A program made the position numbers and the translations under genes. DNA of 64,000 bases from Cytophagales bacterium. Lineage in GTDB: Bacteria > Bacteroidota > Bacteroidia > Cytophagales > Spirosomataceae. Shown in pieces: positions 7,151 through 56,997 of the stretch (its first letter is position 1; every line of letters begins with the position of its first letter). The stretch is taken from assembly GCA_013298125.1 (NCBI GenBank), contig JAAFJP010000002.1, forward strand, positions 1 through 64,000. Direction: 5' to 3'. Below the pieces are notes generated by a model. The model searched no databases. It was not told the origin of the DNA and saw only the letters and a list, made by a program, of their open reading frames with translations.

Positions 7151-7160
7151 AAATTAACCG

Positions 7161-7223
7161 TGCCACCAAGACACCAAGGCACTAAGTTTTTTCAAATCTT
7201 GGAGTCTTAGTGCCTTGGTGGCA
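7161..7223. repeat. Intergenic inverted repeat, GCCACCAAGGCAC type
   Basis: Right arm CTTAGTGCCTTGGTGGCA (7206-7223) pairs with the left arm (7161-7186), which contains an 8-nt internal duplication (ACACCAAG), leaving a bulge. It lies between the CoA ligase and SDR genes. It may act as a stem-loop in the shared mRNA. Confidence 0.75.
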
Positions 7224-7243
7224 AGTATCTTTTCTTATAAAAT

Positions 7244-21844: not shown

Positions 21845-21944
21845 TAATGAATACAATTGCCTTGAAAATGATTCTCTAATTTATTTGATTAGATTTATTT
21901 TTGTAAGGTTGAAAATCTTAGAGAGAGAAAAAAATAAAAAATTA

Positions 21945-23225: not shown

Positions 23226-23953
23226 GAACAGCTTTAATTACAGGTGGTGCAGGTGGCATTGGTTCAGCAATTTGTATAAAATTTGCTGAATCTGGCTATT
23301 CTGTAATTATTACCTATAACTCTGATAAAAATAAGGCTGAAAATTTGTTAAAAACCTTACCAGAAGGCAATCATGCCATATTTCATGCTCCGAATACTGA
23401 TGCAGGTAAACTTCAAGAATTGAGTAATTTCATTGATGAAAAATATGGAAAATTAGATGTTTTAGTCAATAATGCAGGAATCACAACGCCTGTAAAACAT
23501 GATGATTTAGAGGGTTTATCAGATGAATGGATAGATAAAATTTTGCAAACAAACGTAAGAGGAACTTTTGCGATGATTCGGGCAATGAAACCTTTTCTTG
23601 AAAAATCTAATGAGGCTTTGATTGTCAATATTTCCTCAGTTTCAGCAAAATCAGGTATTGGAAGTAATGTAATTTATTGTGCTTCAAAAGCCGCCATTGA
23701 TTCTATAACTCGCTCATTAGCAAGGGTATTAGCTCCCAAAATACGAGTAGTTTCAGTTTCGCCTGGTTGGGTTTTAGGTGATTATACGCAAAATATTGAC
23801 CCCGATTATTTACAAACTCAAATAGATAAAACACCCTTGGGAAGATTGGCAAATGCAGAAGATGTCGCTAATACGATTTTGGCTTTAACAACTCATTTGA
23901 CATTTACAACAGGGTCAATTATCCCCGTTGATGGAGGACGATTATTACTTTAA
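23222..23953 (+). CDS. Short-chain dehydrogenase/reductase (SDR 1 of operon)
   Basis: 243-aa classical SDR with TGGAGGIG cofactor motif, NNAGITTP, Ser in NISSVSA, catalytic YCASK and SPGW; the C-terminus ends [10 protein letters not shown]. After the first strand it reads [11 protein letters not shown], suggesting NADP preference. The start overlaps the stop of the HisD-like gene (ATGA), so the two enzymes are coupled and may interconvert the same alcohol/ketone pair. The exact substrate is not visible. Confidence 0.87.
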
Positions 23954-23959
23954 TTTACT

Positions 23960-24448
23960 ATGAATCAAGCAATTAGAAGAGTTGTATCGGGTCATTCAGA
24001 AGAGGGGAATGCTATTTTTTCATCTGATGAATCTTTTGAAACTATCGTAATTCCTACTGGCGATGCCGCAATGGCAACTATCTGGACAACAGCCACCGTG
24101 CCTGCCGATTGTAATGATGAAATGGATGGTAGAAAGAGAGATGCTGGTACGACGCTTAAAGGCGGTTCGGTCATTAGAGTAGTTGATATGTTACCGAATG
24201 CCTCTTCGCCCATGCACCGTACAAATAGCATTGATTACGGAATTATCATTAGCGGAAAAATTGAATTAGAACTTGACAATCAGGTCTTTAAAACAATTGG
24301 AGCGGGCGGCATAATTGTTCAAAGAGGAACAATTCACAAATGGCGAAATCCAAGTGATACAGAAATTTGTCGAATCGTATTTGTATTGACTGAGGCGAAA
24401 CCTTTTGAGTTAAACGGTGAACCTTTGAAAGAGGTTATGGAACATTAA
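23960..24448 (+). CDS. Cupin-domain protein
   Basis: 162 aa, a single small beta-barrel cupin: SSPMHRTNSIDYGIIISGKI is motif 1, where the metal ligands are reduced (MHRT rather than HxH), and GGIIVQRGTIHKWRNPSD is motif 2 with a histidine. This type is common beside SDR and dioxygenase genes in aromatic and terpenoid clusters, often without proven activity. It is 6 nt after the SDR and 41 nt before the next one. It may be an isomerase, hydrolase or binding protein. Confidence 0.82.
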   Translation: MNQAIRRVVSGHSEEGNAIFSSDESFETIVIPTGDAAMATIWTTATVPADCNDEMDGRKRDAGTTLKGGSVIRVVDMLPNASSPMHRTNSIDYGIIISGKIELELDNQVFKTIGAGGIIVQRGTIHKWRNPSDTEICRIVFVLTEAKPFELNGEPLKEVMEH

Positions 24449-26289: not shown

Positions 26290-28749
26290 ATGAAGAAATT
26301 TATTATCAATCAATCCAAACGGAATAATATGCTTCTTTTGTGTGTTATTTTCTTATTTTCAAGTAATTATGTTTTCGGACAAAATATCTCAGGAAAAGTT
26401 ACTACTGAAAAAGGGGAGTCTCTATCTGGAGTAAGTGTGGTTTTAAAGGGTACATTAAAAGGTACATCATCTGATAAAGATGGAAAGTATTCTATTAATG
26501 CTAATTCAAAAGATCTGTTACTATTTTCATTTATTGGATATGAGTTGCAAGAAATAAAAATTAATGACCAGAAGGAAATTAATGTTACTTTACGAGAAAT
26601 AACAGGGAGACTTGAAGAGGTAGTTGTAACGGCAGAAAATCGTTCGGTTTCAGCTCAAAGAGTACCTATTTCACTTGAATTAGTAACTGGCAAAACCATT
26701 CAAAAGCAAGGCGTAACTGACCTTTTACAGCTACAAAACATCGCCCCAAGTTTGAATATTGTAACCAATACCATTTTTAATCAAATCAACATACGTGGCG
26801 TGGGTAGTAATGATGGTTCTAACGAAATGTCTGACCAAGCCGTTACGGTAGGAATTGATGGCGAATACCTCAACAGACCCGTTGCTTTAAATGCCTCTAT
26901 GTTCGATTTAGACCGTGTAGAAGTCTTGAAAGGACCACAAGGAACACTCTACGGACGTAATGCCACAGCAGGGGCGGTGAATATCATAGCTAAAAAACCT
27001 ACACAAGCTACCGAGGTAGAAGTTGGAGCAAATGTGGGTAATTATGGTACGCTCAAACTCAATGGAGCAGTCAATTTACCCTTGGGCAAAATCGCTGCTA
27101 TTCGGGTAGCTGGCTTATTATCCAAACATGATGGTTATAGAGAAAGTAGCGGTACAGGAGCATTTAATGGTAGAATTGACAATGGTAATTTTTGGGCAGC
27201 TCGTGTGGGGCTTGATATTAACCCCACCAAAAATTTGAATATTTATGTAGCTGGAGAGTGGAACAAGACTGACCAACAAGCACCTGCCCAATATGGAGTA
27301 GCATTGGGCAACATTGAAGCCTTAAAAAATACCGTTCCCCGCACTTGGACAACCACCCTCCCTAATGACTTTCCTGTGGCTACGGCTGGTTTTATGACGA
27401 TAGACCAATCAGCTTCCAGAGGTCGTTTTTCCTATAATTTTGGCGGGGTAGCTTTAACTTATTCGGGAGGTGTCAGAAAAGTAGATATGCTCGGCTATCA
27501 GCCTCTGAACGGTTTTGTGCCTGAAACTTTTAGTTTCCATAATGACCTAAGTTATGATACACAAAGCCACGAGTTGCGTCTAAATGGCGAATCTGCTAAA
27601 TTGAGTTGGCAAGTAGGTGGTTTTTACGGAAAAGAAAACCAAGATGTCCGCCGTGGTTTAGTGTTGCCTTCTGCAGCAGGTGCTTTTGGTGGGCAAGTAC
27701 CTTTTTTGAATTTCTTTTTCAGAGATGTTACCTCAACCACATCAGCTATTTTTGGGCAAGCTACTTACAATGTGAGTGAAAAACTTGGCTTTATGTTGGG
27801 TTTACGGAATACTACCGACAAAAAGACCCGTTCAGGTGCTGATTTGGCTTCCGCACCTTTTGGACCTCCCACCATTATTCGTTTCTTCTATCCCAATGTA
27901 CCCACTTCGCCTACTCAGGCAGGCATGAAACCGCTTACGGGTGCGACCTCTGAAAATAGTTGGAATCAAACCACTTGGACAGCAGGGCTTGAATACAAAG
28001 CTGATGCTAACCGTATGATTTTTGCCAAAGTGAGTAGAGGGTACAAGGCAGGCGGATTTGATAATATTGGCGATTACGACCCCGAATCGCTAATCGCTTA
28101 TGAAGTAGGAACGAAAAATAAATTGGTGAGTAACAAGCTCAAACTCAATGCCTCCTTTTTCTATTATGATTATACCAATCAGCAAGTTTCAGTGTTCATC
28201 AATACGGCTGTGGGTGGGGGTATCAAAAATGCAGGAGCTTCAACGGTTACAGGTTTAGACATCGAAACGGAATATGCTATTTCAAAAAATGACCGTATTA
28301 AACTTACAGCCAATTTTTTAGACGCTAAATTCAAATCTCTTAGAATATTTACTAACATAACAGTTGGGGGTGCAGTAGCAACTGAACAAATTTTAGATGG
28401 CAACCGCCCTGTACAAGCACCTACAACTACTTTAACTGCTCGTTATGACCACGATTTCAAGGTAGGTAAAGGAACTTTAAACGCAGGAATTCAAACGCTT
28501 TTCAAGTCAGATTACTACTTACAACCTTATAATTTGGCAATGGATAAGCAAGAAGCATATACAAAAACCGACATCAACTTAACTTACACAACGGGCAACG
28601 GTAAATTTGATATTGGTGTGTACGCTCAGAATTTAGAAGATAACCGTATCAAGACTTATGCCTCAGTCAATGGTGGTACTATCAACATTTATAACTGGAT
28701 ATTTGGTACGCCAAGATTGATGGGTGTGCAGGCGAATGTGAGATTTTGA
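26290..28749 (+). CDS. TonB-dependent receptor, siderophore-type size
   Basis: 819 aa: signal peptide (MKKFIINQSKRNNMLLLCVI, ending YVFGQ), carboxypeptidase-regulatory-like domain (ISGKVTTEKGESLSGVSVVL), TonB box region (LEEVVVTAEN), plug with VEVLKGPQGTLYGRNATAGAVN and a 22-strand barrel ending QANVRF. The plug motif resembles FecA/pesticin-type receptors more than the two larger receptors earlier in the window. No SusD gene is adjacent. It lies upstream of an MFS and the C-glycoside deglycosidase genes, so import of a glycoside is plausible, but an iron-complex substrate cannot be excluded. Confidence 0.92.
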   Translation: MKKFIINQSKRNNMLLLCVIFLFSSNYVFGQNISGKVTTEKGESLSGVSVVLKGTLKGTSSDKDGKYSINANSKDLLLFSFIGYELQEIKINDQKEINVTLREITGRLEEVVVTAENRSVSAQRVPISLELVTGKTIQKQGVTDLLQLQNIAPSLNIVTNTIFNQINIRGVGSNDGSNEMSDQAVTVGIDGEYLNRPVALNASMFDLDRVEVLKGPQGTLYGRNATAGAVNIIAKKPTQATEVEVGANVGNYGTLKLNGAVNLPLGKIAAIRVAGLLSKHDGYRESSGTGAFNGRIDNGNFWAARVGLDINPTKNLNIYVAGEWNKTDQQAPAQYGVALGNIEALKNTVPRTWTTTLPNDFPVATAGFMTIDQSASRGRFSYNFGGVALTYSGGVRKVDMLGYQPLNGFVPETFSFHNDLSYDTQSHELRLNGESAKLSWQVGGFYGKENQDVRRGLVLPSAAGAFGGQVPFLNFFFRDVTSTTSAIFGQATYNVSEKLGFMLGLRNTTDKKTRSGADLASAPFGPPTIIRFFYPNVPTSPTQAGMKPLTGATSENSWNQTTWTAGLEYKADANRMIFAKVSRGYKAGGFDNIGDYDPESLIAYEVGTKNKLVSNKLKLNASFFYYDYTNQQVSVFINTAVGGGIKNAGASTVTGLDIETEYAISKNDRIKLTANFLDAKFKSLRIFTNITVGGAVATEQILDGNRPVQAPTTTLTARYDHDFKVGKGTLNAGIQTLFKSDYYLQPYNLAMDKQEAYTKTDINLTYTTGNGKFDIGVYAQNLEDNRIKTYASVNGGTINIYNWIFGTPRLMGVQANVRF

Positions 28750-29358: not shown

Positions 29359-30561
29359 ATGAAGCAATCCCAAAGCGTAACACTCCCCACCCGCAAAGCT
29401 GGCTTTTGGCAAGCACTCGTTGTAATTCTCCTCAATCAATTGCCCATGATGGCAATAGTGGCACTCATGCCTGCCCTACCGACTTTAATGGAGCATTTCA
29501 AGGATGTAGAAAACAAAGATTTGCTCGTGCCAATGATACTAACTGCCCCTGGGCTTTGCATTGCTATTATTGCTCCCTTTGCAGGGGTTTTGGTTGATAA
29601 ATTTGGTAGAAGAAACTTATTGATTTGGTTTACAACGCTGTATGGTTTAGGAGGGATTTTACCTTATTTTTTAGATGGTTTTAATACCGTCATTACAGGT
29701 AGATTACTTTTGGGAGTTGGCGAAGCATTCGTTTTGGTTATTGGTAATACCCTTTTAGGAGATTATTTTGCTCCCAAAGACCGTACTAAATGGCTAATGA
29801 TTCAAGGCTTTTTTGGCTCGATTGCGGCTGCCTTACTACTCTCGCTGAGTGGATACTTAGCTAATTTGGGCTGGAATTATCCTTTTTTGGTCTATGCCAT
29901 TTCGTTTATCATTACTGCCCTTTCCGTTATTTTTATCTTTGAACCCCAAGAAAAATTTAGTAGCGAAATTGACAACGAATTACCTCTTGATGCCGAATTT
30001 CCAACAAAAACCGCCATTTTTGTTTTTATCGTAACCTTGTTTTTTGCCATTTTATATTTTGTTTACACTATTCACTTTTCAAGAGCTTTGGATAGTATGG
30101 GTATCAAGGATAAAATACAATTGGGCAATATGAGTGCCATTGCCAGCACCGCTGTTCCATTGGGTGCATTGATTTTTAAATTAGTTTCAAAACGCCCTTT
30201 TTGGCAACAAATGGCTTTGATTTTCTTCTTTTTTGCCATTGGTCTTACGGGAATTGGCTTGGCAAAAGATGCTAATTCGGCAATAATAGTTGGCTGGATT
30301 CAGCAATTGGGTTGCGGCATGACTATCCCCGTTTTGGTCGCTTGGGCTTTGAGTCTTTTCCCTGTGCAGTATCGAGGTCGTGGTATGGGATTTTGGACAT
30401 CCGCTTTCTTCTTAGGGCAATTTCTGAACCCTGTCTTTGTATCTGGTATTACTAAATTTTCGGGTGGGCTTTTACCAACTTTCGTAACCGTAGGAGTTAT
30501 TTGTGGTGTAATCTGCGTTGTGATTATTGGGTATAATTTTTCTTCAAAAAAATCTGCTTAA
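29359..30561 (+). CDS. MFS transporter next to C-glycoside deglycosidase
   Basis: 400-aa inner-membrane transporter with about 12 hydrophobic segments: LLNQLPMMAIVALMPALPTL, loop VDKFGRRNLLIW, GVGEAFVLVIGNTLLGDYF and a later PVQYRGRGMGFWTSAFFLG. This is the drug/sugar-efflux-like branch of the MFS with broad substrates. It is followed after 14 nt by the first TIM-barrel deglycosidase subunit, which suggests that it imports the glycoside across the inner membrane. Substrate not visible from sequence. Confidence 0.88.
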   Translation: MKQSQSVTLPTRKAGFWQALVVILLNQLPMMAIVALMPALPTLMEHFKDVENKDLLVPMILTAPGLCIAIIAPFAGVLVDKFGRRNLLIWFTTLYGLGGILPYFLDGFNTVITGRLLLGVGEAFVLVIGNTLLGDYFAPKDRTKWLMIQGFFGSIAAALLLSLSGYLANLGWNYPFLVYAISFIITALSVIFIFEPQEKFSSEIDNELPLDAEFPTKTAIFVFIVTLFFAILYFVYTIHFSRALDSMGIKDKIQLGNMSAIASTAVPLGALIFKLVSKRPFWQQMALIFFFFAIGLTGIGLAKDANSAIIVGWIQQLGCGMTIPVLVAWALSLFPVQYRGRGMGFWTSAFFLGQFLNPVFVSGITKFSGGLLPTFVTVGVICGVICVVIIGYNFSSKKSA

Positions 30562-30575
30562 AAAATACTTTTAAA

Positions 30576-31550
30576 ATGAATAATCATATCAAAAGAGCTG
30601 TGAGTCTTTACAGCTATCAGGAAGAGTTTTTCTTAAAAAAAATGAACCTTGAAGATTGCATTGCGGCAGCAGCCAAAACTGGGGCAACTGGAATTGAGAT
30701 AATTGGCGAGCAGAGTATTCCTAATTTTCCAAAGCTAACAGATGCCTTTATAGACCAATGGTTTGGCTGGATGGACAAATACAACGTTACGCCCGTAGCC
30801 CATGATATGTTTATGGATTACACCAAGAAAAAGGGGCATTATTGGACTAATGATGAAGCAGTTGAGTCATTCAAAAAAGACATTCGCTTTGCTCATCGTC
30901 TGGGCTTCAAAGTCATACGAGTTATTTGTAATGTTACGCCCGAAATCATGGAAAAAGTAATCCATTTTGCAGAAGACCATGACGTAAAATTAGGAATAGA
31001 AGTACACTCGCCTTGGCATATAAACTCGGCTTGGATGTATCGCCATTGGGAAGTGATGGAGCGAACAGGTACAAAGCATTTTGGGTTTATTCCCGACATG
31101 GGAGCATTTACCAAAAGGCTTGCTCGTGTCCAAGTCGATAGAATGGTACGACAAGGGGCTGACCGAAAAATTGCGGATTTTGTATGTGAGCAACATGAAA
31201 AAGGAGTGATGGCAGAATATATAATTGCCCAAGTTGCTCAAATGACCAACAACCGTATTGATATTGCAGTTGCCGAACTTGCAAGGCATAATATTATGGT
31301 CAATCCTATTAGTTTGCTTCAACACGCCGATAGAATTATTCACATTCATGGTAAATTCTACGAAATGTTGGAGGATTATACTGAATACGGTATTCCTTAC
31401 AAAGAAGTAATTGATGTGCTGAAAAAGGGTGGTTTTGAGGGCTACATTGCCAGTGAATATGAAGGTAATCGCCATATTCAAGATATTTACGAAGTAGATT
31501 CAGTAGAACAAGTAAGAAGGCATCAAGAAATGCTGAGAAGACTAATTTAG
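30576..31550 (+). CDS. C-glycoside deglycosidase alpha subunit-like TIM barrel (copy 1)
   Basis: 324-aa protein of the sugar phosphate isomerase/epimerase (AP endonuclease 2) fold. Candidate metal ligands line up as Glu in LGIEVHSPWH, Asp in GFIPDMGAF, His in IHIHGKFYEM and Glu in YIASEYEGNR. This set, and the pairing with a small DUF6379-type beta protein and a GMC sugar oxidase, match bacterial C-glycoside deglycosidases (DgpB/DgpC and CarB/CarC types). These cut the C-C bond of 3-oxo-C-glucosides by metal-assisted elimination. A second alpha homologue lies at 32.5-33.5 kb. Plain sugar isomerase activity is the alternative, but the neighbours argue against it. Confidence 0.83.
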   Translation: MNNHIKRAVSLYSYQEEFFLKKMNLEDCIAAAAKTGATGIEIIGEQSIPNFPKLTDAFIDQWFGWMDKYNVTPVAHDMFMDYTKKKGHYWTNDEAVESFKKDIRFAHRLGFKVIRVICNVTPEIMEKVIHFAEDHDVKLGIEVHSPWHINSAWMYRHWEVMERTGTKHFGFIPDMGAFTKRLARVQVDRMVRQGADRKIADFVCEQHEKGVMAEYIIAQVAQMTNNRIDIAVAELARHNIMVNPISLLQHADRIIHIHGKFYEMLEDYTEYGIPYKEVIDVLKKGGFEGYIASEYEGNRHIQDIYEVDSVEQVRRHQEMLRRLI

Positions 31551-31654
31551 TTATTGGTTACTGGTTATTAGGAACAGGTTTACTTATAAAAATTTGCATT
31601 TTAAACCAAGTCTCTAATAACCAATAACCAGTTTTCCAATAACCAATAACCAAA
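31551..31654. repeat. Inverted repeat of TTATTGGTTA units between alpha 1 and beta 1
   Basis: The left arm TTATTGGTTACTGGTTATTAG (31551-31571) pairs with CTAATAACCAATAACCAG (31614-31631); further CCAATAACC units continue to 31651. The same unit family flanks the S23-type gene at 37.1-37.8 kb. The left arm begins right at the alpha-subunit stop codon. Confidence 0.75.
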
Positions 31655-31662
31655 TCAAAAAG

Positions 31663-32034
31663 ATGTTTGAAAAATATATGATTGTGCCTGAAAAGGCAAA
31701 GAAAACTGAGAATGGTTTTCAATTTGGAGCAAGATTGCCCTATTATCGTGGCATTTCGCTATCTATGGTCGAGGAAATTGAAGTAACCTTAGATGGCGAA
31801 ACCTTACCTCAAAGTGCGGTGAATATTACCGTACATGGCAATACATATGATTTAGTACAACGAGAAAAAGAAACGGACGACCGTTGGGAAATGGGCGAAG
31901 AAGCTATATTATCAGTAAAAAAAGAGGACGGTTTGTCGGTAGGCGAACATAAATTGGGGCTAAAAATCAATTTACGAATTGGCTATATGCCGTTTCCAAG
32001 TATTAGGGTAGCCGAAAAGAAAATTATTATTTGA
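31663..32034 (+). CDS. C-glycoside deglycosidase beta subunit-like (copy 1)
   Basis: 123-aa small beta-rich protein matching the C-deglycosidase beta-subunit (DUF6379) family: NGFQFGARLPYYRGISLSMV, EVTLDGETLPQ, VHGNTYDL and a terminal IGYMPFPSIRVAEKKI. In characterised enzymes the beta subunit is needed for a stable, active complex with the TIM-barrel alpha subunit. It follows alpha copy 1 and precedes beta copy 2, with which it shares NGFQ, YR-LS and the overall layout at low identity. It is about the usual family length. Confidence 0.8.
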   Translation: MFEKYMIVPEKAKKTENGFQFGARLPYYRGISLSMVEEIEVTLDGETLPQSAVNITVHGNTYDLVQREKETDDRWEMGEEAILSVKKEDGLSVGEHKLGLKINLRIGYMPFPSIRVAEKKIII

Positions 32035-32035
32035 T

Positions 32036-32106
32036 TTTTGATTTCGGATATAATATTGGGCGAAATCACAAATCCGAAATCCGAAATCACAAATCCGAAA
32101 TCAAAA
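32036..32106 (+). promoter_or_regulatory. Hairpin and direct repeats over the beta 2 start codon
   Basis: TTTTGATTTCGGAT (32036-32049) is the exact reverse complement of ATCCGAAATCAAAA (32093-32106), whose last base is the A of the beta 2 ATG. Between them, CGAAATCACAAATC occurs twice, 21 nt apart. In the mRNA this stem would touch the start codon, so it may limit translation of beta 2 relative to beta 1. Confidence 0.6.
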
Positions 32107-32501
32107 TGGGTCCATTAGACAAATACATTTTAAAAGATGACGCTTTGGAAGCCACCAAAAATGGTTTTCAGTTAAAATTTCAGTCGCATTGGTATCGTGC
32201 CTTGCCGCTTTCGTGCATGGATTTTAACCTAAAAATTAACGGGAAAGAAATTGATAAAAATACCTTTAAAATCAAAGCCAATGGCAATGAATATCGGTAC
32301 GATGAATTGCCCGAACTGGACAAAGAATGGCTATTTGTTCTTGACCGTGGCATATTGGAAGTAGAACAACCTCTTGAAAAAGGAAAAGAGTATGAGGTAG
32401 AGTTTAAATATGACCTATACATTCCCTATATTTTGGCAGGTTCACAAGCGGTGCCTTTGTTGGCGAGTAGTGTGGCGTATAAAAATCTAATCTGTCAATA
32501 A
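32106..32501 (+). CDS. C-glycoside deglycosidase beta subunit-like (copy 2)
   Basis: 131 aa from the ATG at 32106; the longer open frame upstream only translates repeats. It is homologous to beta copy 1 and to DUF6379-type beta subunits: ATKNGFQLKFQSHWYRALPL, LKINGKEID, ANGNEYRYDEL and DLYIPYILAG. It lies 2 nt before alpha copy 2, so the two are almost certainly co-translated and form the second heteromeric deglycosidase. Confidence 0.8.
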   Translation: MGPLDKYILKDDALEATKNGFQLKFQSHWYRALPLSCMDFNLKINGKEIDKNTFKIKANGNEYRYDELPELDKEWLFVLDRGILEVEQPLEKGKEYEVEFKYDLYIPYILAGSQAVPLLASSVAYKNLICQ

Positions 32502-32503
32502 TT

Positions 32504-33496
32504 ATGTCAAATATAAAATTAGCTACATCGCTTTTTTCTTATGCCTATGAATGGAATTCGGGCAAGTATACATTAGAAGATGTCATTGCGGAAACTCGTA
32601 AAAGAGGCTTAGGGACAGGCTTGGAAATAATTGGTTTTCAGAGCCTTAGAGGTTTTCCATATATTTCTAATGAAACCGAAAAAGAAGTAAAAAACTTATT
32701 GGATAAATACGAATTTGAGCCAGTAGCCTTAGATGCCAACATTGATGTAGGTATCAAAAGACACCAAAAAATGACTACTGACGAAACCGTTGAATACATC
32801 AAACCGCAGATTTTGGCAGCTCAAAAATTAGGATTTCCGATACTCCGAGTTCAAACCACTGCCCCTGCGGAGGTTTACCAAAAATTAGTCCCTTTTGCCG
32901 AAAAAGCCAATGTGATTATGGGTGTTGAATTGCATACGCCTTATAGTGTAGACCACCCTTCGGTCATAAAAATGCTCGAAATGTTCAAAGAAATTGATAC
33001 GCACGTATTGGGTTTTGTGCCTGATATGGGTACTTGTATGAGAGCCATTCCTGATGCACTTTTAACCAGTTTTAAAGCATCGGGCGTAACTGATGAAATG
33101 ATTGAAGCAACCAAAGAAATTTGGCATAAGGACATTTCTACCCCACAAAAATTTGGTGAATTAGCTGAAAAAGTAGGAGTAATGGGTGCTACACCACCAC
33201 AAATCGGTAGGCTGAATATGGCATTTAGCATGAACGGTAGGCAGCCCATAGAAAGTTGGAAGGAAATAATGCCTTATGTAGTGCATATTCACGGTAAATT
33301 CTACGGTTTTGATGAAAACGGCGACGAACCTTCGATTGATTATGAAAAAATATTTAAGGTTTTCAACGAGGGCGGTTACAATGGTTATATTTCGAGCGAG
33401 TACGAAGGCTCGGCATTTACTGATGAATTTGACGCTTTTGATATGGTGGAAATGCAGCATATATTGTTTAAGAAGATTTTGAAAGATTTAACATGA
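32504..33496 (+). CDS. C-glycoside deglycosidase alpha subunit-like TIM barrel (copy 2)
   Basis: 330-aa paralogue of the protein at 30.6-31.6 kb. Candidate metal ligands are conserved: Glu in MGVELHTPYS, Asp in GFVPDMGTC, His in VHIHGKFYGF and Glu in YISSEYEGSA. Compared with copy 1 it has a different middle section (TPPQIGRLNMAFSMNGRQP), which may set substrate preference. Its stop codon overlaps the start of the GMC oxidoreductase (ATGA), coupling sugar oxidation and C-C cleavage. Together with beta copy 2 it should form a second enzyme, perhaps for other C-glucosides (6-C versus 8-C, or O-linked). Confidence 0.83.
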   Translation: MSNIKLATSLFSYAYEWNSGKYTLEDVIAETRKRGLGTGLEIIGFQSLRGFPYISNETEKEVKNLLDKYEFEPVALDANIDVGIKRHQKMTTDETVEYIKPQILAAQKLGFPILRVQTTAPAEVYQKLVPFAEKANVIMGVELHTPYSVDHPSVIKMLEMFKEIDTHVLGFVPDMGTCMRAIPDALLTSFKASGVTDEMIEATKEIWHKDISTPQKFGELAEKVGVMGATPPQIGRLNMAFSMNGRQPIESWKEIMPYVVHIHGKFYGFDENGDEPSIDYEKIFKVFNEGGYNGYISSEYEGSAFTDEFDAFDMVEMQHILFKKILKDLT

Positions 33497-35049
33497 ATAC
33501 AGACATATTGATAATCGGCAGTGGTCCAGTTGGGGCAACTTATGCACGATTAATTTCCGAATCAAAACCCGATGCTAAAATCTTAATGATTGATGCTGGA
33601 CCAAAGATTTCGGATAAAATTGGTCAGCATACAAAAAACATTTCCGACCAAAAGGCAATGGAAAAGGCACAGATTCTTTCGCAAGGACCAAAGAAAACAC
33701 CTTACCCGATGATTTCTGTGGCAGAACGGGCAATGGCTGTTCAACGTGGCGAACTAAGTGCTGATGTACTGGCAAGGGCAGGAACGCATTTGGTTTTAGA
33801 CCAAATAGAAGACATTAAAAACAATGAAATGCCTTCTATTTCCATGTCCACAAACATTGGCGGTATGGGGGTTCATTGGACTTGTGCCTGCCCAACGCCA
33901 GGTAATGGCGAGCGAATTCCGATTATTCCGACACATGAAATGGACGAATCTCTTGCCAAAGCACGAGAGATACTAAACGTAACGCAAGAGGCATTTCCGA
34001 GTTCGCCCGAAAGTGTAACGATTTTGAATATTCTCAATCAAACATTGGGTACAAACCACTCACCAAATCGTCAGGCACAGCCCATGCCCTTGGCTTGTAA
34101 AACTGACGAAGTGGGCAATCGCTATTGGACAGCCACTGATGTTATTTTGGGAGTAACAATGGATAATCCAAATTTTGAAATCCGTTCAGATACCATTTGT
34201 CGTAAACTTAATCATGAAAATGGTAAAGTAATAGGGGCGGAAATCGAAAATATTGTTTCGGGTGAAAAAGAAACTATCAATGCAAAAATCGTAATTGTAG
34301 CTGCCGACCCATTACGTACACCACAGCTACTGTGGGCATCAAATATTCGTCCAAAAGCGTTAGGTCATTACCTTAATGAACACCCATTTGTTTTTACGTT
34401 TGTAGAATTGGATAAAGATTTGGTAAAAAATTATTCTCAAAATCGAAAAGTCGAGTGCGACCCCAGCCAAATCGAAAATCGAAAATCGAAAGACCCAACC
34501 ATTGGCGTTTTCTTGGTACCATTCGATGCACCCAATCATCCATTTCACGGGCAAGTCATGCACATGGATTTCTCACCGATGAAAACAACTGTCAGTGATG
34601 ATTCAAAACACATAGTTGGTTTGGGCTGGGGGTGTTTGAAAGAATCAAACTTTGAGGATTGTATTGTTTTTTCTGAATCAGAAAAAGATTACCTTGGTAT
34701 GCCAAAAATGAATTTTAAATTTCATTATACCGAAAACGACCTTGCCACAATTGAAGCTGCCAGAGTATTTCAAACAAAAGTAGTAAGGCTGTTTGGAAAA
34801 GAAATAAAAGATGGTAGTCAAACAGTCATGCCTGCGGGAACGTCCCTACATTACGAAGGCACAACTCGGATGGGCATAGAAAACGATGGAGAATCGGTTT
34901 GTAATACTCACTCCCAAGTTTGGGGTTTTGAAAACTTATTTGTGGGTGGAAATGGCGTTATCCCCATAGCCACAGCATCTAATCCAACGCTTACGAGTGT
35001 AGCTTTGGCGGTGCGTTCTTGTGAAAAAATTATAGAATTATTAAGGTAA
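33493..35049 (+). CDS. GMC/pyranose-oxidase-like FAD sugar oxidoreductase
   Basis: 518 aa. FAD fold DILIIGSGPVGATYARLISE, flavin-contact segment STNIGGMGVHWTCACPTPG, and C-terminal substrate/FAD part SLHYEGTTRMG and FVGGNGVIPIATASNPTLTS with the catalytic His/Asn region. This is the pyranose 2-oxidase-like branch of GMC oxidoreductases, which includes CarA-type FAD enzymes that oxidise the sugar 3-hydroxyl of C-glycosides to activate them for deglycosidation. It overlaps alpha copy 2 by 4 nt. Odd: near residues 325-333 the gene contains a repeated AATCGAA tract that encodes QIENRKSK and looks like an in-frame repeat insertion. Confidence 0.87.
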   Translation: MNTDILIIGSGPVGATYARLISESKPDAKILMIDAGPKISDKIGQHTKNISDQKAMEKAQILSQGPKKTPYPMISVAERAMAVQRGELSADVLARAGTHLVLDQIEDIKNNEMPSISMSTNIGGMGVHWTCACPTPGNGERIPIIPTHEMDESLAKAREILNVTQEAFPSSPESVTILNILNQTLGTNHSPNRQAQPMPLACKTDEVGNRYWTATDVILGVTMDNPNFEIRSDTICRKLNHENGKVIGAEIENIVSGEKETINAKIVIVAADPLRTPQLLWASNIRPKALGHYLNEHPFVFTFVELDKDLVKNYSQNRKVECDPSQIENRKSKDPTIGVFLVPFDAPNHPFHGQVMHMDFSPMKTTVSDDSKHIVGLGWGCLKESNFEDCIVFSESEKDYLGMPKMNFKFHYTENDLATIEAARVFQTKVVRLFGKEIKDGSQTVMPAGTSLHYEGTTRMGIENDGESVCNTHSQVWGFENLFVGGNGVIPIATASNPTLTSVALAVRSCEKIIELLR

Positions 35050-35060
35050 TTTTGAGTACC

Positions 35061-35987
35061 ATGTCGAAAATTGATAAAATACCTACTTTTAACCCTTATG
35101 AGTTAAAATTAAACCTGTATCAGGATATTATTGACCATTCTTCCACTTTTTTTACGAATACACATCATCTTTTTCATATTAATCGTATAGAAGATTATAT
35201 GAAAATTGTCCATTTCCCTAAACCATCTGACTTGCTTCCTCATAGATTGACAGTTTTTAGTTTATTTTTTTTGACCAAAGGGTCAAGTCGAAGAAGTAAA
35301 GGGTTAGATTCCTTTGATTTTGATGAAAATACCTTCTTTTTCGTACCCGCTCATCAAATAACAACGCACGAATTTATTAGCAAAGATGTAGCGGGTTTTT
35401 ATTGCCATTTTAATCTTGAAATACTCACTACACACATTAATGAAAAAGATTTAATCAATGAATTTTCTTTTTTAGATTTCAATACTTCCCCTTTGGTTTC
35501 CATTAACGAAGAAGCAAAAACTCATATCACGCCACTACTCGAACGCCTTTTGGCGGAGTACAAGGCAGGAGAAAATGGTCGGAATGATATACTGAGAATT
35601 TACCTGCTGGCTCTTTTTACTGAGTTAAAACCTTTCGTAGAAAACAAAGTTGTCAGCTCATCAAATTCCGCTTCTCAAATTACATTACAGTATAAAAAAG
35701 CACTTTCGCAAAATATTTATTCAAAAAATAAAATAACTGATTATGCCGAATTACTCTATATTTCGCCGAATCATTTGAATAAATGCGTAAAAAAAACGAT
35801 AGGAAAATCGGCACATGATTTACTCAACGAAATGCTTTTACTTGAAGCAAAGGTTTTGTTGAAACAAACCAATCTGAACATAACAGAAATAGCTCATAAA
35901 ATTGGTAAAAACGAAACAAGTGACTTTGCCAGGTTTTTTAAAACTCAAACGGGTATGCGACCAAGCGAGTATCGAGAGTTATCGTAA
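35061..35987 (+). CDS. AraC-family transcriptional regulator (paralogue 2)
   Basis: 308 aa from ATG 35061 (a TTG three codons upstream is possible). Cupin-like sensor (FHINRIEDYMKIVHFPKP, KGSSRRSKGLDSFDF, FFVPAHQITTHEF) plus the AraC DNA-binding domain (ITDYAELLYISPNHLNKCVKKTI, LNITEIAHKIGKNETSDFARFFKTQTGM). It is a close paralogue of the regulator at 13.8-14.7 kb, and the same 18-bp candidate operator follows each. It lies between the deglycosidase module and the ring-cleavage genes, so it probably controls one or both. Confidence 0.92.
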   Translation: MSKIDKIPTFNPYELKLNLYQDIIDHSSTFFTNTHHLFHINRIEDYMKIVHFPKPSDLLPHRLTVFSLFFLTKGSSRRSKGLDSFDFDENTFFFVPAHQITTHEFISKDVAGFYCHFNLEILTTHINEKDLINEFSFLDFNTSPLVSINEEAKTHITPLLERLLAEYKAGENGRNDILRIYLLALFTELKPFVENKVVSSSNSASQITLQYKKALSQNIYSKNKITDYAELLYISPNHLNKCVKKTIGKSAHDLLNEMLLLEAKVLLKQTNLNITEIAHKIGKNETSDFARFFKTQTGMRPSEYRELS

Positions 35988-36126: not shown

Positions 36127-37113
36127 ATGGCAAAAAATCCACATTATTTATCACAAATGGCTCACGTGGAGCTACTGAGTACAAACCTTGAAGAAACAGC
36201 CCGTTTTTATACAGAAATAGTTGGAATGGATGAAACCGCCAGAGACGAAAACTCATCTTATTTAAGAGCATGGGGAGATTATTTTCTTTACACTTTGAAG
36301 ATTACGCAATCTGATAAAAAAGGCTTAGGAACAATCGGATGGCGGGCTGATAGTGAGGAAGCCTTGACGGATTGTGTTCAATTTTTAGAAAGCACTGGCA
36401 ACGGAATTGGTTGGGTTGAAGCCGACAAAGGCAGAGGAAAAGCATACCGTTTCAAAACCACCGAAGGCATCACTCACGAAGTCTTTTGGGATGTAAAATG
36501 GCTACGAGAAACGGGCGAAAAAGGAAGCAAATTTGCAGACCGTTATGCCAGTAATCGTAGGAAAGGAGCTTGCCCACGCCGTTTTGACCATGTTACGTAC
36601 TTAGTAGCCAAAGGTAGTTATGCTTTTGGTGAAAAGCCTTTTTGGCAAGGAATGGGCTTGAAAAACCCTGATGAGATTCGCTTAGAAGACCATATTCCTG
36701 CCATCGGTGGACTTTGGACAATCGGGAATCTTTCGCACGATATTGCCGTGTTCTCAGACCCAAATCTTCCCGAAGGACAAGGCATTTTGAATCATATATG
36801 TTACAACGTAGATAGTCGTGAGGAGGTACTTTTAGCCTTAGATTGGTTCGTCGAAAATGGATACACAAGTGTATGGGGAGCTCCAACTCGACACAAAGCG
36901 GATGAAGGTTTTTTCTTTTACATAATGGAACCTCACACGGGGATTTTATTAGAAATTTATGCCTGTGCAAGACTAATTTTCGCCCCAGACCACGGTCCAG
37001 ACATTCATTATTTAAAAGACAATCCAAACGATGCTTGGGGACTTACAAATCCTTTTGCGGAGGCTGCAAAAAGTGGCAAAGTAGGGGGAATTGTTAAACC
37101 TGTGGATATCTAG
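36127..37113 (+). CDS. VOC-family extradiol ring-cleavage dioxygenase
   Basis: 328-aa two-domain vicinal-oxygen-chelate protein of catechol 2,3-dioxygenase type. The N-terminal domain starts AHVELLSTNLEETARFY. Iron ligands in the second domain are His155 (RFDHVTYLV), His223 (LNHICYNV) and Glu276 (LLEIYA), the complete 2-His-1-Glu triad. It should cleave a catechol-type ring next to the hydroxyls with O2. It is followed by a C-C hydrolase-like protein, an FAD monooxygenase and an FAA hydrolase, the parts needed to open the flavonoid A ring as in the Herbaspirillum naringenin (fde) route; the actual substrate is inferred. Confidence 0.9.
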   Translation: MAKNPHYLSQMAHVELLSTNLEETARFYTEIVGMDETARDENSSYLRAWGDYFLYTLKITQSDKKGLGTIGWRADSEEALTDCVQFLESTGNGIGWVEADKGRGKAYRFKTTEGITHEVFWDVKWLRETGEKGSKFADRYASNRRKGACPRRFDHVTYLVAKGSYAFGEKPFWQGMGLKNPDEIRLEDHIPAIGGLWTIGNLSHDIAVFSDPNLPEGQGILNHICYNVDSREEVLLALDWFVENGYTSVWGAPTRHKADEGFFFYIMEPHTGILLEIYACARLIFAPDHGPDIHYLKDNPNDAWGLTNPFAEAAKSGKVGGIVKPVDI

Positions 37114-37814: not shown

Positions 37815-38927
37815 ATGTGGCATTACTTTCCTAATCAATATATGCCGTCTTATCAAGTGAACCGTGCTTTGACACAGGCTCACTACGGTGGCGGAGAATT
37901 TGCTGAAATATTAGAAGTAGCAAGTCAGATTACACCTGGCAACAATGAAACTTTTCATCAGGCTTGGGCAAAAATGGGCGATAAAGTCTATGATTTAGCG
38001 GAAGACTTTGCTAAAAATGGCAATGACGTTTCCGCTCGTAGAACTTATTTACGGGCTTTCAATTATCTCCGTACTTCCGAATTTTTCTTAGTACCCAGTG
38101 ATAATCGCAAATTGCCTTCATATCTGAAAGCCCGTGATTCTTTCATCAAAGCCATTCATCGTTTTGAGCATAAACCTTTGCAAGTGGAAGTTCCTTTTGA
38201 AGGGACAACTTTATCAGGGTATTTGTTTGCCCCCGTTGGTATAAAAAAACCTCCCGTTATGATAATGTTTGGTGGCTTGGATAGTTTGGCGGAGGAGCTT
38301 TATTTTGGCATTTCTCAACATCTTAATGAACGAGGAATCGCTTTATTGGCAGTTGATGGTCCAGGGCAAGGGGCATCTTTACGCTTAAAACACATTCTCA
38401 CACGCTTTGATTTTGAAGTGGCAGGAACGGCAGTATTAGATTGGGTAATAGAAAATCTGAAAGAAAATGTGGATGTTACACGTATAGGAATCGGGGCGGT
38501 TTCAATGGGAGGATATATGGCAGCTCGTTGTGCGGCTTTTGAACCAAGATTCAAGGTCTGTATGATATTTGGGGCGGTTTGGTCGTATTATGACATTTGG
38601 AAAAACCGTCCAAATAATCATCCTTTGGCAGAAATTGTGAAACATATCGTGGGTGCTGAAACAATGGAAGATGCACGTGAAAGGTTGAAAAAATTTACCT
38701 TAGATGGTGTTGCAGAAAAAATTACAATGCCTACCTACGTATTACACGGGGGCGATGACCGACAAAATTTTGTAGAAAATGCTCACAAAATGCGAGATGC
38801 TTTAACCTGCAAAAATGTGGTTGAAATCGTACCAGAAGGAGAAAGCGGTTCGGCTCATTGTTGTATTGATGATTTTACGAAGACTTTTAATATGTACGAT
38901 TGGATTGCAAAGGAGATAAAGAAATAA
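37815..38927 (+). CDS. Alpha/beta hydrolase, 2,6-dihydropseudooxynicotine hydrolase-like
   Basis: 370 aa with an extra N-terminal helical domain (about residues 1-125) before the alpha/beta fold. Nucleophile Ser230 in GAVSMGGY, acid Asp in HGGDDRQNF and His in SAHCCIDDF form the triad; PPVMIMFGGLDS is the oxyanion strand. This architecture is that of FrsA/DHPON-type hydrolases, which cut C-C bonds in 1,3-diketone-like intermediates. After an extradiol dioxygenase, a C-C hydrolase is the expected next step. The S23-type element separates the two genes, but they share direction. Confidence 0.85.
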   Translation: MWHYFPNQYMPSYQVNRALTQAHYGGGEFAEILEVASQITPGNNETFHQAWAKMGDKVYDLAEDFAKNGNDVSARRTYLRAFNYLRTSEFFLVPSDNRKLPSYLKARDSFIKAIHRFEHKPLQVEVPFEGTTLSGYLFAPVGIKKPPVMIMFGGLDSLAEELYFGISQHLNERGIALLAVDGPGQGASLRLKHILTRFDFEVAGTAVLDWVIENLKENVDVTRIGIGAVSMGGYMAARCAAFEPRFKVCMIFGAVWSYYDIWKNRPNNHPLAEIVKHIVGAETMEDARERLKKFTLDGVAEKITMPTYVLHGGDDRQNFVENAHKMRDALTCKNVVEIVPEGESGSAHCCIDDFTKTFNMYDWIAKEIKK

Positions 38928-38939: not shown

Positions 38940-40070
38940 ATGAAAAAAATCTTGATTGTTGGCGGTGGTTTGGGCGGTCAATCCGTTGCAATAGCCCTGA
39001 GAAAGATAAATATTGAGGCTGAAATTGTTGAAATAAACACGTCATTTAATGTTTATGGTGTAGGTATAATTCAGCAAGCCAATGCTTTACGGGCTTTGGA
39101 TACTATTGGCGTTGGACAAGAAGCCATCCGTAGAGGGTCGCCTTACGGTCAGGTAAAAATGTGTCTTCCGCATGGGCATCAAATTGGTTTAGCTGGTCCG
39201 CCTCCATCCGAAAAATACCCAAGTCATAATGGAATTTCTCGTAAACTTCTCCACGATATTTTGTTTGAAGAAGCCAATAAATTAGGCGTAATCTATCGAA
39301 TGGGCTTAACTGTGGCAACATTAGACCAAAAATCCGATGGTGTTCAAGTTACTTTTATAGACGGTTCAGAAGGTTTTTATGATATCGTAGTTGCTGCCGA
39401 TGGGATTAATTCCAAAGTTAGAAATATGGTTTTTGGCGAATCTAAACCCCGTTATGTTGGGCTTTCTGTTTGGCGTTATCCATTCAAAAGACACGAAGAT
39501 TTGGACACAGGATATATGTATTTTGGCAAAAAAAGCAAGGTTGGATTCATTCCAATGACCGCCGACACCATGTATATGTTTGTGGTAACGGCAGAAGGCG
39601 AAGACAACCCAATCATTCCCGAAAATGAGCTTGTTTCAAGACTAAAATCATGTTTAAAAGAATATCCAGTTAAAATTGCTCAGGATGCGATGGAGCAAGT
39701 TACGGATGCAAAATTGGTTAATTATCGCCCACTCGAAGCCCTGCGATTGCATGCCCCGTGGCATAAAGGAAGAGTGGTAGTTTTAGGAGATGCAGCTCAC
39801 GCCACCATTCCACAATTAGGTTCTGGGGCGGCTTTGGCAATTGAAGATGCTGTGGTTTTGGCAGAAGAAATCCAAAAAGGAGGAGACGTTTCTGATATTT
39901 TTGATGCCTACATGAAACGCCGATTTGACCGTTGTATGATGGTCGTAAATGCCTCTGAGACATTAGGCGAGTGGGAATTAATGGAATTTCAAGGAAAATC
40001 ATTACCCGAAGGTGCAAATGCTGGGGCATTAATGGGAAGAACAATTGGAGCTTTGGCAGCACCGATTTGA
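38940..40070 (+). CDS. FAD-dependent aromatic monooxygenase
   Basis: 376-aa single-component flavin hydroxylase (PHBH class). FAD fold ILIVGGGLGGQSVAIALRK, central VVAADGINSKVRNMVFGE (the DG motif) and GRVVVLGDAAHATIPQLGSG with the GD motif. Such enzymes add OH ortho or para to a phenolic hydroxyl using NAD(P)H and O2. Next to an extradiol dioxygenase, this is the predicted preparatory hydroxylation that creates a catechol, as FdeE does for naringenin at C8. Cytoplasmic. About 150 nt of unstructured spacer with CCAATCAACCAATT-type repeats precedes the next gene. Confidence 0.88.
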   Translation: MKKILIVGGGLGGQSVAIALRKINIEAEIVEINTSFNVYGVGIIQQANALRALDTIGVGQEAIRRGSPYGQVKMCLPHGHQIGLAGPPPSEKYPSHNGISRKLLHDILFEEANKLGVIYRMGLTVATLDQKSDGVQVTFIDGSEGFYDIVVAADGINSKVRNMVFGESKPRYVGLSVWRYPFKRHEDLDTGYMYFGKKSKVGFIPMTADTMYMFVVTAEGEDNPIIPENELVSRLKSCLKEYPVKIAQDAMEQVTDAKLVNYRPLEALRLHAPWHKGRVVVLGDAAHATIPQLGSGAALAIEDAVVLAEEIQKGGDVSDIFDAYMKRRFDRCMMVVNASETLGEWELMEFQGKSLPEGANAGALMGRTIGALAAPI

Positions 40071-40220: not shown

Positions 40221-41177
40221 ATGAAATTAGTAACTTTTAAAAATAAAAAAGGCGAAAGCCGCACAGGTTGGCTTCAAGGCGAAGGCGTGGTCGATATGAA
40301 TTTGGCAAGTTCAGAATTACCAACTGATATGCTCTCTTTCATTGATAATCACGAAGCATATTTTGTGATAATCAAATCATTAGGAGAAGTAAAACCTCAT
40401 TATCAATTAGCTGATATTCAATTGCTTGCCCCTTTGCCGAACCCAAGAAGTTTTAGAGATTTTATTGGTTTTGAACAGCATATGCTCAATGCTTCAAAAT
40501 CTTTTGGACATACTGTCGGACCCATTTGGTACGAAATGCCCATTCATTATTTTACCAATCATCAAGCCATTTATGGACCTGATGATGAAATAAAACGTCC
40601 TGAAAAAGAAACAAAACTTGATATTGAACTCGAATTGGGCGTCGTTATAGGTAAAAAAGGGAAAGATATTAAAGCTGAAAATGCGGAAGATTATATTTTT
40701 GGTTATACCGTTTTTAATGATTGGACTGCAAGAGCAACTCAAAAAGTTGAAATGGGCGGACCACCCTTGGGACCACACAAAGGCAAAGATTTTGCCAATG
40801 CTATCGGACCTTGTATTGTGACAAAAGATGAAATGGAACAATATAAATGTACGATTTCAAAAGAAAATTTTCCCTCACAGCTTCGTTTTCCAGAAGATAA
40901 ATCCGAAAGATTTGACGTAAAAATGACTGCCAAAATTAACGGAGAAGTCATTTGTGAAGGTAATTACAATACGGTCTATTGGGCTTTTCCAGAACAAATT
41001 GAACGGGCTTCTGAAAATAATGTAACGCTTTACCCAGGGGACATGCTTGGTTCTGGAACAGTAGGCTGGGGTAGTTTAATTGAAAATAATTTTTCCGTTC
41101 ATCGTCCACTTGAACCTGGGGATGTGGTTGAGTTGGAAATTGAAGGGATTGGGGTTTTGAGAAATAGGGTAATATAA
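40221..41177 (+). CDS. Fumarylacetoacetate hydrolase family protein
   Basis: 318 aa. N-terminal lid domain (VTFKNKKGESRTGWLQGEGV), then the FAH fold: FRDFIGFEQHM, metal site DIELELGVVIGKKGKDI, VFNDWTARATQ, GPHKGKDFANAIGPCIV and GDMLGSGTVGWGS. Family members hydrolyse, hydrate or decarboxylate 2-oxo/1,3-dioxo acids from ring cleavage using Mg or Mn. In this cluster it would process the ring-fission product after the dioxygenase and C-C hydrolase. Which of the possible reactions it performs cannot be read from the sequence. Confidence 0.9.
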   Translation: MKLVTFKNKKGESRTGWLQGEGVVDMNLASSELPTDMLSFIDNHEAYFVIIKSLGEVKPHYQLADIQLLAPLPNPRSFRDFIGFEQHMLNASKSFGHTVGPIWYEMPIHYFTNHQAIYGPDDEIKRPEKETKLDIELELGVVIGKKGKDIKAENAEDYIFGYTVFNDWTARATQKVEMGGPPLGPHKGKDFANAIGPCIVTKDEMEQYKCTISKENFPSQLRFPEDKSERFDVKMTAKINGEVICEGNYNTVYWAFPEQIERASENNVTLYPGDMLGSGTVGWGSLIENNFSVHRPLEPGDVVELEIEGIGVLRNRVI

Positions 41178-41189: not shown

Positions 41190-41222
41190 AACGTTGTGAA
41201 GGTTCAAAACCTTCACAACGTT
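41190..41222. repeat. Short intergenic palindrome, GTGAAGGTT type (second copy)
   Basis: Arms AACGTTGTGAAGGTT and AACCTTCACAACGTT around 3 nt; it differs from 11658-11690 by one compensated base pair (AT to GC) in the stem. The paired change keeps the hairpin, suggesting that structure matters. Confidence 0.85.
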
Positions 41223-41237
41223 AGAAAAATAAAAACA

Positions 41238-56972: not shown

Positions 56973-56997
56973 ATTTAACCATAAAATCCAATAAACA

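Follow-up and report, generated by a model that had tools for sequence, protein, structure and literature searches.

A putative C-glucosyl flavonoid catabolic cluster with two classes of C-glycoside deglycosidase beside candidate ring-cleavage genes in a Cytophagales bacterium

Why would a bacterium carry two alpha and two beta subunit genes of C-glycoside deglycosidase (CGD) next to a single sugar oxidase gene, and what might become of the compounds that such enzymes release? The question is raised by a window of 64,000 nucleotides (nt), the whole stretch of DNA analysed here, which comprises positions 1 to 64,000 of contig JAAFJP010000002.1 in assembly GCA_013298125.1, a Cytophagales bacterium of the Spirosomataceae with a genome of 5.85 Mb in 72 contigs that belongs to the genus of Arcicella aurantiaca. 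According to the open reading frame (ORF) list and homology, positions 29359-35049 hold six genes, all on the plus strand, for a major facilitator superfamily (MFS) transporter, alpha1, beta1, beta2, alpha2 and a glucose-methanol-choline (GMC) flavoenzyme, position 29359 being the start of the MFS gene. The four-gene core spans 30576-33496 between the transporter and the GMC enzyme, in the alpha-beta-beta-alpha order that an earlier note, made from the sequence alone, had described; the GMC gene starts within alpha2, overlapping its end by 4 nt.

We took as the mark of a CGD alpha subunit a TIM barrel with the metal ligands E147, D179, H269, K271 and E305 and the catalytic residues H149 and E307 (AgCGD2 numbering, checked on the chain). 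In the available excerpt of PMC8563793 these AgCGD2 residues have the roles of metal ligands, of base and of supporting residue, and mutants are reported to be less active. Both alpha proteins match the Pfam barrel family AP_endonuc_2 (PF01261; 5.6e-17 for alpha1 and 1.4e-12 for alpha2) and keep 7/7 of the residues (E142, H144, D174, H258, K260, E294 and E296 in alpha1; E142, H144, D174, H263, K265, E299 and E301 in alpha2), and alpha and beta genes lie side by side. Both small proteins exceed the curated cut-off of the CGD beta family CGDB (PF19906; Table 1); they are the only CGDB matches (E<=0.001) in the whole genome, and 0/14 control genomes had one. The nearest solved chains of both alphas are given in Table 1, and those of beta1 are 8umc_B and 8qvc_B at 106 bits. 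By sequence beta2 is the weakest of the set (7dnm_B at 32 bits), and its structure was therefore modelled. The AlphaFold model (pLDDT 93.1) has 17 matches in the PDB with E<=0.001, all of them CGD betas or fused CGDs with 7dnm_B first, and the next match has an E-value of 0.018. We place the start of beta2 at ATG 32106 and not at the mechanically assigned TTG 32031, the first residues of close homologues being identical or nearly so.

It is very improbable that the barrels are isomerases or lyases of 3-oxo sugars or 3-oxo-O-glycosides rather than enzymes acting on C-C bonds. The fold is common to sugar epimerases, the model of a fused relative (L057; L labels denote the loci or stretches compared and G labels the genomes) distantly matches 8tct, the 3-keto-beta-glucopyranoside-1,2-lyase of B. 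thetaiotaomicron, and up to four further PF01261 barrels stand beside the module in relatives; yet in the window each barrel has a CGDB beta as its partner and retains the H149/E307 set, and for either alpha the eight top-ranking solved relatives are the CGD entries. Ordinary sugar isomerase identity was rejected on the nearest solved relatives and the model matches of beta2. Judging from sequence and model, the four core genes very probably encode CGD subunits. The earlier note had seen two TIM-barrel alphas, two small betas and a pyranose-oxidase-like GMC enzyme, a set known to oxidise the sugar of flavonoid C-glucosides and cut their C-C bond. Pfam, the CGDB cut-offs and the solved relatives agree with it, and the core of that reading is upheld by the CGD and glycoside 3-oxidase (G3Ox) relatives and the seven retained residues. 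The profile search and structure prediction that it had proposed as checks put the betas above the CGDB cut-off and CGD betas first among the model matches of beta2, and the barrels group with CGDs.

Of solved chains, the one closest to the GMC enzyme is 8qve (470 bits), which we take to be DaCGO1, followed by 7qf8 (PsG3Ox; 367 bits), 7dve (364 bits) and 9fl2 (240 bits), and the other Pyranose (2-)oxidase entries, presumably fungal, reach at most 137 bits. The insertion-1 region aligns to 7qf8 and the conserved His and Asn region is present, the choice of which His and Asn are catalytic being our assumption. By sequence, then, the GMC enzyme is closest to G3Ox and C-glycoside oxidases (CGOx), not to oligomeric pyranose 2-oxidase (P2Ox). 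As a point against the catabolic reading proposed below, only 11 of the 80 CGD loci that we compared from genome contigs, some of them short, encode a GMC protein with 35% or more identity to the window oxidase; among the 13 compact alpha-beta-beta-alpha loci described below, 8 do so. In the other loci the CGD oxidase is a more remote relative, belongs to a different family or lies beyond the examined stretch. In Emticicia aquatica (L023, 5003-6652) the oxidase slot is taken by a GMC protein with just 20% identity to that of the window, which suggests that the oxidase may have been replaced there.

Do the four subunits make up one enzyme or two? Identity is 32% between alpha1 and alpha2 and 26% between beta1 and beta2. 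The earlier note had read the gene order as duplicated and mirror-like; a recent inverted duplication is ruled out by these identities together with the occurrence of each class in other phyla, and two old classes take its place. In the alpha tree (99/136 rows) a clade of 34 rows unites alpha2 with AgCGD2, and one of 58 rows unites alpha1 with the Deinococcus aerius enzyme, DaCGD (SH-aLRT 99 each), both classes being present in Bacteroidota, Chloroflexota, Actinomycetota and Pseudomonadota. The beta tree (89/136 rows; few columns, many weak forks) shows the same main split with support of 98, beta1 falling on the DaCGD side and beta2 with the AgCGD2 beta. Five loci (L033, L035, L036, L037 and L055) were left out of both trees as duplicates, their BLAST labels being kept in the count of gene orders.

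Leaving out five pairs beside alphas of neither class, the beta class follows the alpha class in 44/47 unambiguous pairs. Two of the three discordant betas (L021 beta2 and L064 7452) are so by default label, the distance filter having left them out of the beta tree, and the third (L021 5413-5796; CGDB 1.5e-19) is an orphan CGD beta-like gene with an AraC regulator on either side, the closest alpha being almost 6 kb away. Of 21 ambiguous pairs, one did not conform, its beta being fused within the next, alpha2, ORF. Fusions are likewise pure in class: beta2-alpha2 in frame in G075 (L022 7216-8808, 530 amino acids (aa) from a mechanical start) and in Chloroflexota L057 (463 aa; beta2-class by tree, a near tie by BLAST), and beta1-alpha1 in Acidobacteriota L058 (454 aa). 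The split across phyla, the class-faithful pairing and the class-pure fusions make two separate enzymes likelier than a mixed complex, and on this sequence evidence alpha1beta1 and alpha2beta2 are very likely distinct enzymes. A point on the other side is that the L057 model (pLDDT 85.9), each half of which matches a CGD alpha or beta, does not superpose as a full chain on the fused 8qrz (TM 0.54-0.57, rmsd 15.8), so that it lends no support to subunit docking. One mixed complex of all four proteins, or free exchange of subunits, is a highly unlikely arrangement in our estimation. In its favor, the four genes adjoin on a single strand, relatives often keep both pairs within one cluster, and intestinal CGDs are alpha4beta4 assemblies (PMC8563793, excerpt); set against this are the faithful pairing and pure fusions already described, the occurrence of alpha1beta1 alone in G031 and, in the same excerpt, Pu and Eu beta subunits that are not interchangeable. 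Of the two options left by the earlier note, two enzymes with different substrates or a mixed complex, the former is thus favored.

The arrangement recurs. At least two alphas are present in 32/80 loci and both alpha kinds, by BLAST, in 30/80. The same-strand order alpha1-beta1-beta2-alpha2 occurs in 15/80, and in 13 of these less than 3 kb separates the betas. The 13 comprise eight loci from Bacteroidota, two from Geodermatophilus, two from Ideonella and one from an actinobacterium with a second alpha that the tree places outside the AgCGD2 clade; L057 and L068 make up the 15. The order is found in 8/9 Bacteroidota loci and, counting the window's own genome and one fusion, in 7/10 family genomes with a CGDB match. 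Chloroflexota L048, L049 and L052 have the alternative order beta2-alpha2-alpha1-beta1. CGDB itself is patchy, as expected of an accessory pathway, occurring in 10/200 family genomes (9 over the cut-off) and 4/395 genomes of the phylum sample, with the window's genome in both counts. In relatives such as Arcicella aurantiaca two extra PF01261 barrels separate beta1 from beta2 and another two stand between alpha2 and the GMC gene (xylose-isomerase-like; L019 3982-5721 and 8736-11201, also L021 and L022, and three of the four in L023), and so beta1 and beta2 need not adjoin, a further point against a mixed complex. These barrels may process the released 3-oxo sugar fragment. Two of the four were searched for in the window's genome: the A. 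aurantiaca barrel from between beta1 and beta2 had no match, and the one adjoining GMC has a 58% relative at C2:120794. In the window, the gap between beta1 and beta2 holds an exact 21-nt tandem repeat in two copies (32061-32102), and a degenerate 22-nt repeat pair lies 5' of beta1 (31604-31647).

If there are two enzymes, what might distinguish them? DaCGD reportedly takes isovitexin and mangiferin and prefers C6 glucosides, and the title of the D. aerius paper (J Mol Biol 2024) names flavonoids and xanthonoids. With alpha1beta1 belonging to the class of DaCGD and alpha2beta2 to that of AgCGD2, the two pairs probably split substrates by the site of glycosylation. AgCGD2 accepted only a C8 glucoside, a property tied to Met249 and a longer loop, and AgCGD1 and MtCGD accepted mainly C6-glycosylated compounds (PMC8563793, excerpt). 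The Met is kept at the Met249 place in alpha2, with a loop one residue shorter than that of AgCGD2; in alpha1 the place is occupied by His, and the loop falls short of the AgCGD2 length by two residues. We predict a division into C6 (alpha1beta1) and C8 (alpha2beta2) glucosides, and would give this assignment an even chance. Several points count against it: (i) alpha2 is without Y17, R123, S124, P241, F242 and N248 of AgCGD2, besides having the shorter loop; (ii) the His of alpha1 stands where C6 enzymes reportedly have Ala or Gly; and (iii) the assignment leans on one characterised enzyme of the AgCGD2 class. A plausible though lesser possibility is that the pairs differ by aglycone or linkage (flavone as opposed to xanthone, anthraquinone or aryl C-glucoside, or elimination from O-glucosides) and not by C6 and C8. 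Poor knowledge of the specificity residues, the reported substrates of DaCGD and the changes at the AgCGD2 site in alpha2 would accommodate such a difference; against it, the sole AgCGD2-class enzyme assayed took only the C8 glucoside (PMC8563793, excerpt), and for PurBC the glycosylation site outweighed the aglycone (PMC12724307, excerpt).

The genes around the module, which are an addition to the account given in the earlier note, bear on the fate of the aglycone. On the 3' side of the AraC-type gene lie genes for a vicinal oxygen chelate (VOC) dioxygenase, a small S23-like ORF (labelled by eye), an alpha/beta hydrolase, an FAD monooxygenase, an FAA-family hydrolase and a cyclase; on the 5' side of the module are a cupin gene and a HisD/SDR (short-chain dehydrogenase/reductase) pair (Table 1). 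The ifc isoflavone cluster, which has been likened to fde of Herbaspirillum, includes an FAD 8-hydroxylase, a glyoxalase, an alpha/beta hydrolase like 2,6-dihydroxypseudooxynicotine (2,6-DHPON) hydrolase, and cupins (PMC11069340, excerpt). A set of this type, FAD monooxygenase, glyoxalase-type dioxygenase, DHPON-hydrolase-like protein and cupin, is present in the window, the cupin gene lying 12 kb upstream of the dioxygenase gene. Homologues of the FAD monooxygenase (38-40% identical) occur in fde/ifc-like clusters L181-L188. Among 10 stretches around monooxygenase matches in the family of G591 (Duganella), the four-gene set lies together in L182-L184, where the monooxygenase is 38-40% and the VOC protein 25-29% identical to the window proteins; L185 holds the set more spread out, L181 is without the cupin, L186-L188 are without the dioxygenase, and L180 and L189 are without the set. 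Cupin relatives (30-33%) lie near an FAD monooxygenase in L182-L188. Relatives of HisD (75-90%) are found inside or beside cassettes in L021, L027, L028, L193, L195 and L196, and in all of these except L021 an SDR relative adjoins.

Co-occurrence was compared in two ways. A dioxygenase orthologue (E<=1e-100) is present in 8/9 CGD genomes of the family sample versus 28/191 others (Fisher p 4e-6, treating two family samples of 200 as the same genomes). When a cassette family was scored regardless of identity (BLAST E<=1e-5 over no less than half of the window protein, which admits remote relatives), at least two of the five families occur in 15/80 CGD loci versus 0/40 control stretches (p 0.0014) and at least three in 9/80 versus 0/40 (p 0.022); with the first 20 controls alone the values are p 0.026 and p 0.12. 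The first 20 controls were stretches from three Bacteroidota genomes, one of them with a single cassette family, and the other 20 came from G623, G709, G591 (Duganella and family) and G596 (Neobacillus). The same cassette follows alpha-beta-GMC in Deinococcus aetherius and lies near CGDs in Neobacillus, Azospirillum, Paraflavisolibacter and Confluentibacter. It is also carried, without CGD in the stretches examined, by Emticicia oligotrophica and Hymenobacter monticola plasmids, and in Emticicia aquatica and A. aurantiaca it is located elsewhere in the genome than the CGD genes.

We favor the possibility that these upstream and downstream genes form a flavonoid A-ring cleavage route for the aglycone, and think this rather likely from the comparative evidence. 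Several observations argue the other way. The Burkholderiaceae dioxygenase relatives are only 25-29% identical, and the likeness to FdeE, FdeC, IfcA and IfcB is one of gene set. The genomes are related, which makes the Fisher p too optimistic. The dioxygenase is present without CGD in 28 family genomes, so that the cassette would serve other substrates too, and G010 has CGDB without a dioxygenase orthologue. The examined flanks of 55/80 CGD loci, some on short contigs, hold no cassette gene.

Uptake genes complete the set. Relatives of the TonB-dependent receptor (51-70%) precede MFS and alpha1 genes in L019, L021, L022, L023 and L136, and MFS relatives (44-79%) lie near CGD genes in L019-L024 and L026. 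From sequence, the receptor is the probable outer-membrane entry, without a SusD partner, and the MFS transporter probably serves inner-membrane import. The earlier note had called a SusD-less receptor notable. Within the window there is indeed no match to PF07980 or PF14322 (the genome has 15 and 18, respectively, the nearest on this contig at about 201-202 kb), but a receptor relative near CGD genes is frequent, at 25/80 loci, many of them in Pseudomonadota. Relatives of the AraC-type putative regulator stand beside the GMC gene in L019, L021-L024 and L026 and one MFS gene away in L020. Counts in a promoter and terminator scan of the window were close to the shuffled mean. The glycoside hydrolase family 1 (GH1) enzyme encoded upstream probably acts on O-glucosides.

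Table 1. Features of the window and the evidence for their naming
Feature	Position	Strand	Evidence
GH1 glycosidase	17749..19179	+	Glyco_hydro_1 6e-127
HisD-like dehydrogenase of putative aglycone cassette	21885..23225	+	TIGR00069 454 bits
SDR adjoining HisD	23222..23953	+	Pfam adh_short_C2
Cupin, IfcD-like by gene set only	23960..24448	+	Cupin_2 2.8e-8
TonB-dependent receptor with CarbopepD_reg domain	26290..28749	+	Pfam plug/barrel
MFS transporter	29359..30561	+	Pfam MFS_1 9e-40
alpha1, putative CGD alpha subunit, DaCGD class	30576..31550	+	397 bits to 8qvc_A; clade with DaCGD
beta1, putative CGD beta subunit (PF19906)	31663..32034	+	CGDB 2.4e-33; 106 bits to 8umc_B
beta2, putative divergent CGD beta subunit (PF19906)	32106..32501	+	CGDB 1.6e-11; model match 7dnm_B 2.5e-11
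alpha2, putative CGD alpha subunit, AgCGD2 class	32504..33496	+	220 bits to 7dnm_A
GMC flavoenzyme, glycoside-3-oxidase / pyranose oxidase type	33493..35049	+	470 bits to 8qve
AraC-type regulator	35052..35987	+	HTH_18 2.6e-18
Extradiol (VOC) ring-cleavage dioxygenase	36127..37113	+	TIGR03211 8e-54, below family cut-off
alpha/beta hydrolase, 2,6-dihydroxypseudooxynicotine hydrolase type (C-C bond hydrolase)	37815..38927	+	best PDB 2jbw 8.5e-23
FAD monooxygenase, proposed flavonoid A-ring hydroxylase	38940..40070	+	NF005313 (PRK06847) 412 bits, over cut-off
FAA-family hydrolase	40221..41177	+	Pfam 6e-53
Cyclase / isatin-hydrolase-like protein	41196..41993	+	Pfam 1e-33; PDB 5nnb 1e-10

Elsewhere in the window, a crotonase, an acyl-CoA synthetase and an SDR are encoded in one run (4346-8011), with relatives of 74-81% identity near a ring-cleavage cassette in A. 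aurantiaca (L192); the run may handle a hydroxycinnamate-like part of the aglycone. DUF3237-like proteins with signal peptides apparent by eye are encoded at 3736-4257 (Pfam match) and 11095-11625 (by eye), and a QuiC-like fused 3-dehydroshikimate dehydratase / HPPD-like protein at 50070-51917 (486 bits, below the family cut-off). A PEP-synthase-like gene (56232-58811; by eye) appears split into successive ORFs, which could reflect frameshifts, a pseudogene or assembly error, and an aldehyde-dehydrogenase-like gene (59630-61051) likewise appears split, the match being seen for the first piece and the rest judged by eye.

There is precedent for most parts of the cluster. The solved proteins nearest to alpha1, beta1 and GMC are those of D. 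aerius (PDB 8qvc and 8umc; oxidase 8qve). A close relative of that species, D. aetherius (NZ_AP026561, L029), encodes proteins identical to alpha1, beta1 and GMC at 56%, 42% and 46% in the order alpha-beta-GMC, then VOC, cyclase, FAA, alpha/beta hydrolase and FAD monooxygenase-like genes; unlike the window, the stretch examined has one alpha-beta pair, and ABC transporter genes in place of TonB/MFS. AgCGD2 of Arthrobacter globiformis (PDB 7dnm, 7dnn) is of the class of alpha2 and beta2 and has the seven metal and catalytic residues and Met249 in common with alpha2, but is distant (alpha 220 bits, beta 32 bits), with P241, F242 and N248 replaced in alpha2. The PsG3Ox locus of Pseudarthrobacter siccitolerans, like the window, has one glycoside 3-oxidase near two alpha and two beta CGD genes; it is actinobacterial, and aglycone genes go unmentioned in the available excerpt (PMC10646112). 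PurABC of Paenarthrobacter (PMC12724307) and CarABC of Microbacterium (PMC8563793) also combine an FAD oxidase with a heterodimeric CGD, but as a single pair, a second class not being described in those excerpts. The fde (Herbaspirillum) and ifc (Variovorax) clusters share with the window the FAD monooxygenase, glyoxalase-type dioxygenase, 2,6-DHPON-hydrolase-like protein and cupin; they are proteobacterial, the likeness is one of gene set, and the excerpts describe no CGD (PMC11069340, PMC11303751). The components, the chemistry and the combination of one oxidase with two CGD pairs (PMC8563793, PMC10646112) were thus known already. So were Bacteroidota homologues, PurABC relatives having been listed there in 2025 (excerpt of PMC12724307), which qualifies the statement in the earlier note that described systems are mostly from Actinobacteria, Firmicutes and Proteobacteria. 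Among the literature matches listed, judged by title and start of abstract, we found no report of a CGD cluster joined to aglycone ring-cleavage genes, nor, among those listed, of the two-class alpha-beta-beta-alpha unit as a conserved arrangement. The enzymes themselves are of known kind, and the interest lies in the conserved pairing and the linked ring-breaking genes.

A scenario that would account for the gene set is the following: (i) the TonB receptor and the MFS transporter would import the glucoside; (ii) the GMC enzyme would oxidise the C3 hydroxyl of the glucose with O2, giving H2O2 and a 3-oxo-C-glucoside; (iii) one of the two metal-dependent heteromeric CGDs, alpha1beta1 or alpha2beta2, would take the C2 proton and break the C-C bond in a step resembling beta-elimination, with a His base and a metal-bound hydroxide, giving the aglycone and 1,5-anhydro-D-erythro-hex-1-en-3-ulose; (iv) the FAD monooxygenase would hydroxylate ring A of the aglycone; and (v) the VOC dioxygenase would open the ring, after which the alpha/beta hydrolase, FAA hydrolase and cyclase would degrade the product. 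On the strength of the sequence, we consider that the cluster is quite probably a catabolic system for C-glucosyl (and O-glucosyl) flavonoids.

C-glucosyl flavonoids withstand ordinary glycosidases. In the excerpts available, the C-glycoside literature traces the reaction as far as the free aglycone and does not work out what then becomes of that aglycone, or of the sugar fragment, in C-glycoside degraders of soil. With both CGD classes joined to ring-cleavage genes, a complete route becomes testable in a genus with a type strain, and the cluster supplies candidate C6- and C8-selective enzymes. More tentatively, and with slightly less than even confidence, we propose that alpha1-beta1-beta2-alpha2 represents an old unit, retained repeatedly and made up of two regiospecific (C6 and C8) CGDs that share one C3 oxidase and drain into an A-ring cassette. 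Such a unit would give aerobic Bacteroidota a self-contained route, from outer-membrane uptake to ring opening, by which to mineralise C-glucosyl flavonoids, with CGD-plus-cassette equivalents in Deinococcota, Bacillota and Pseudomonadota.

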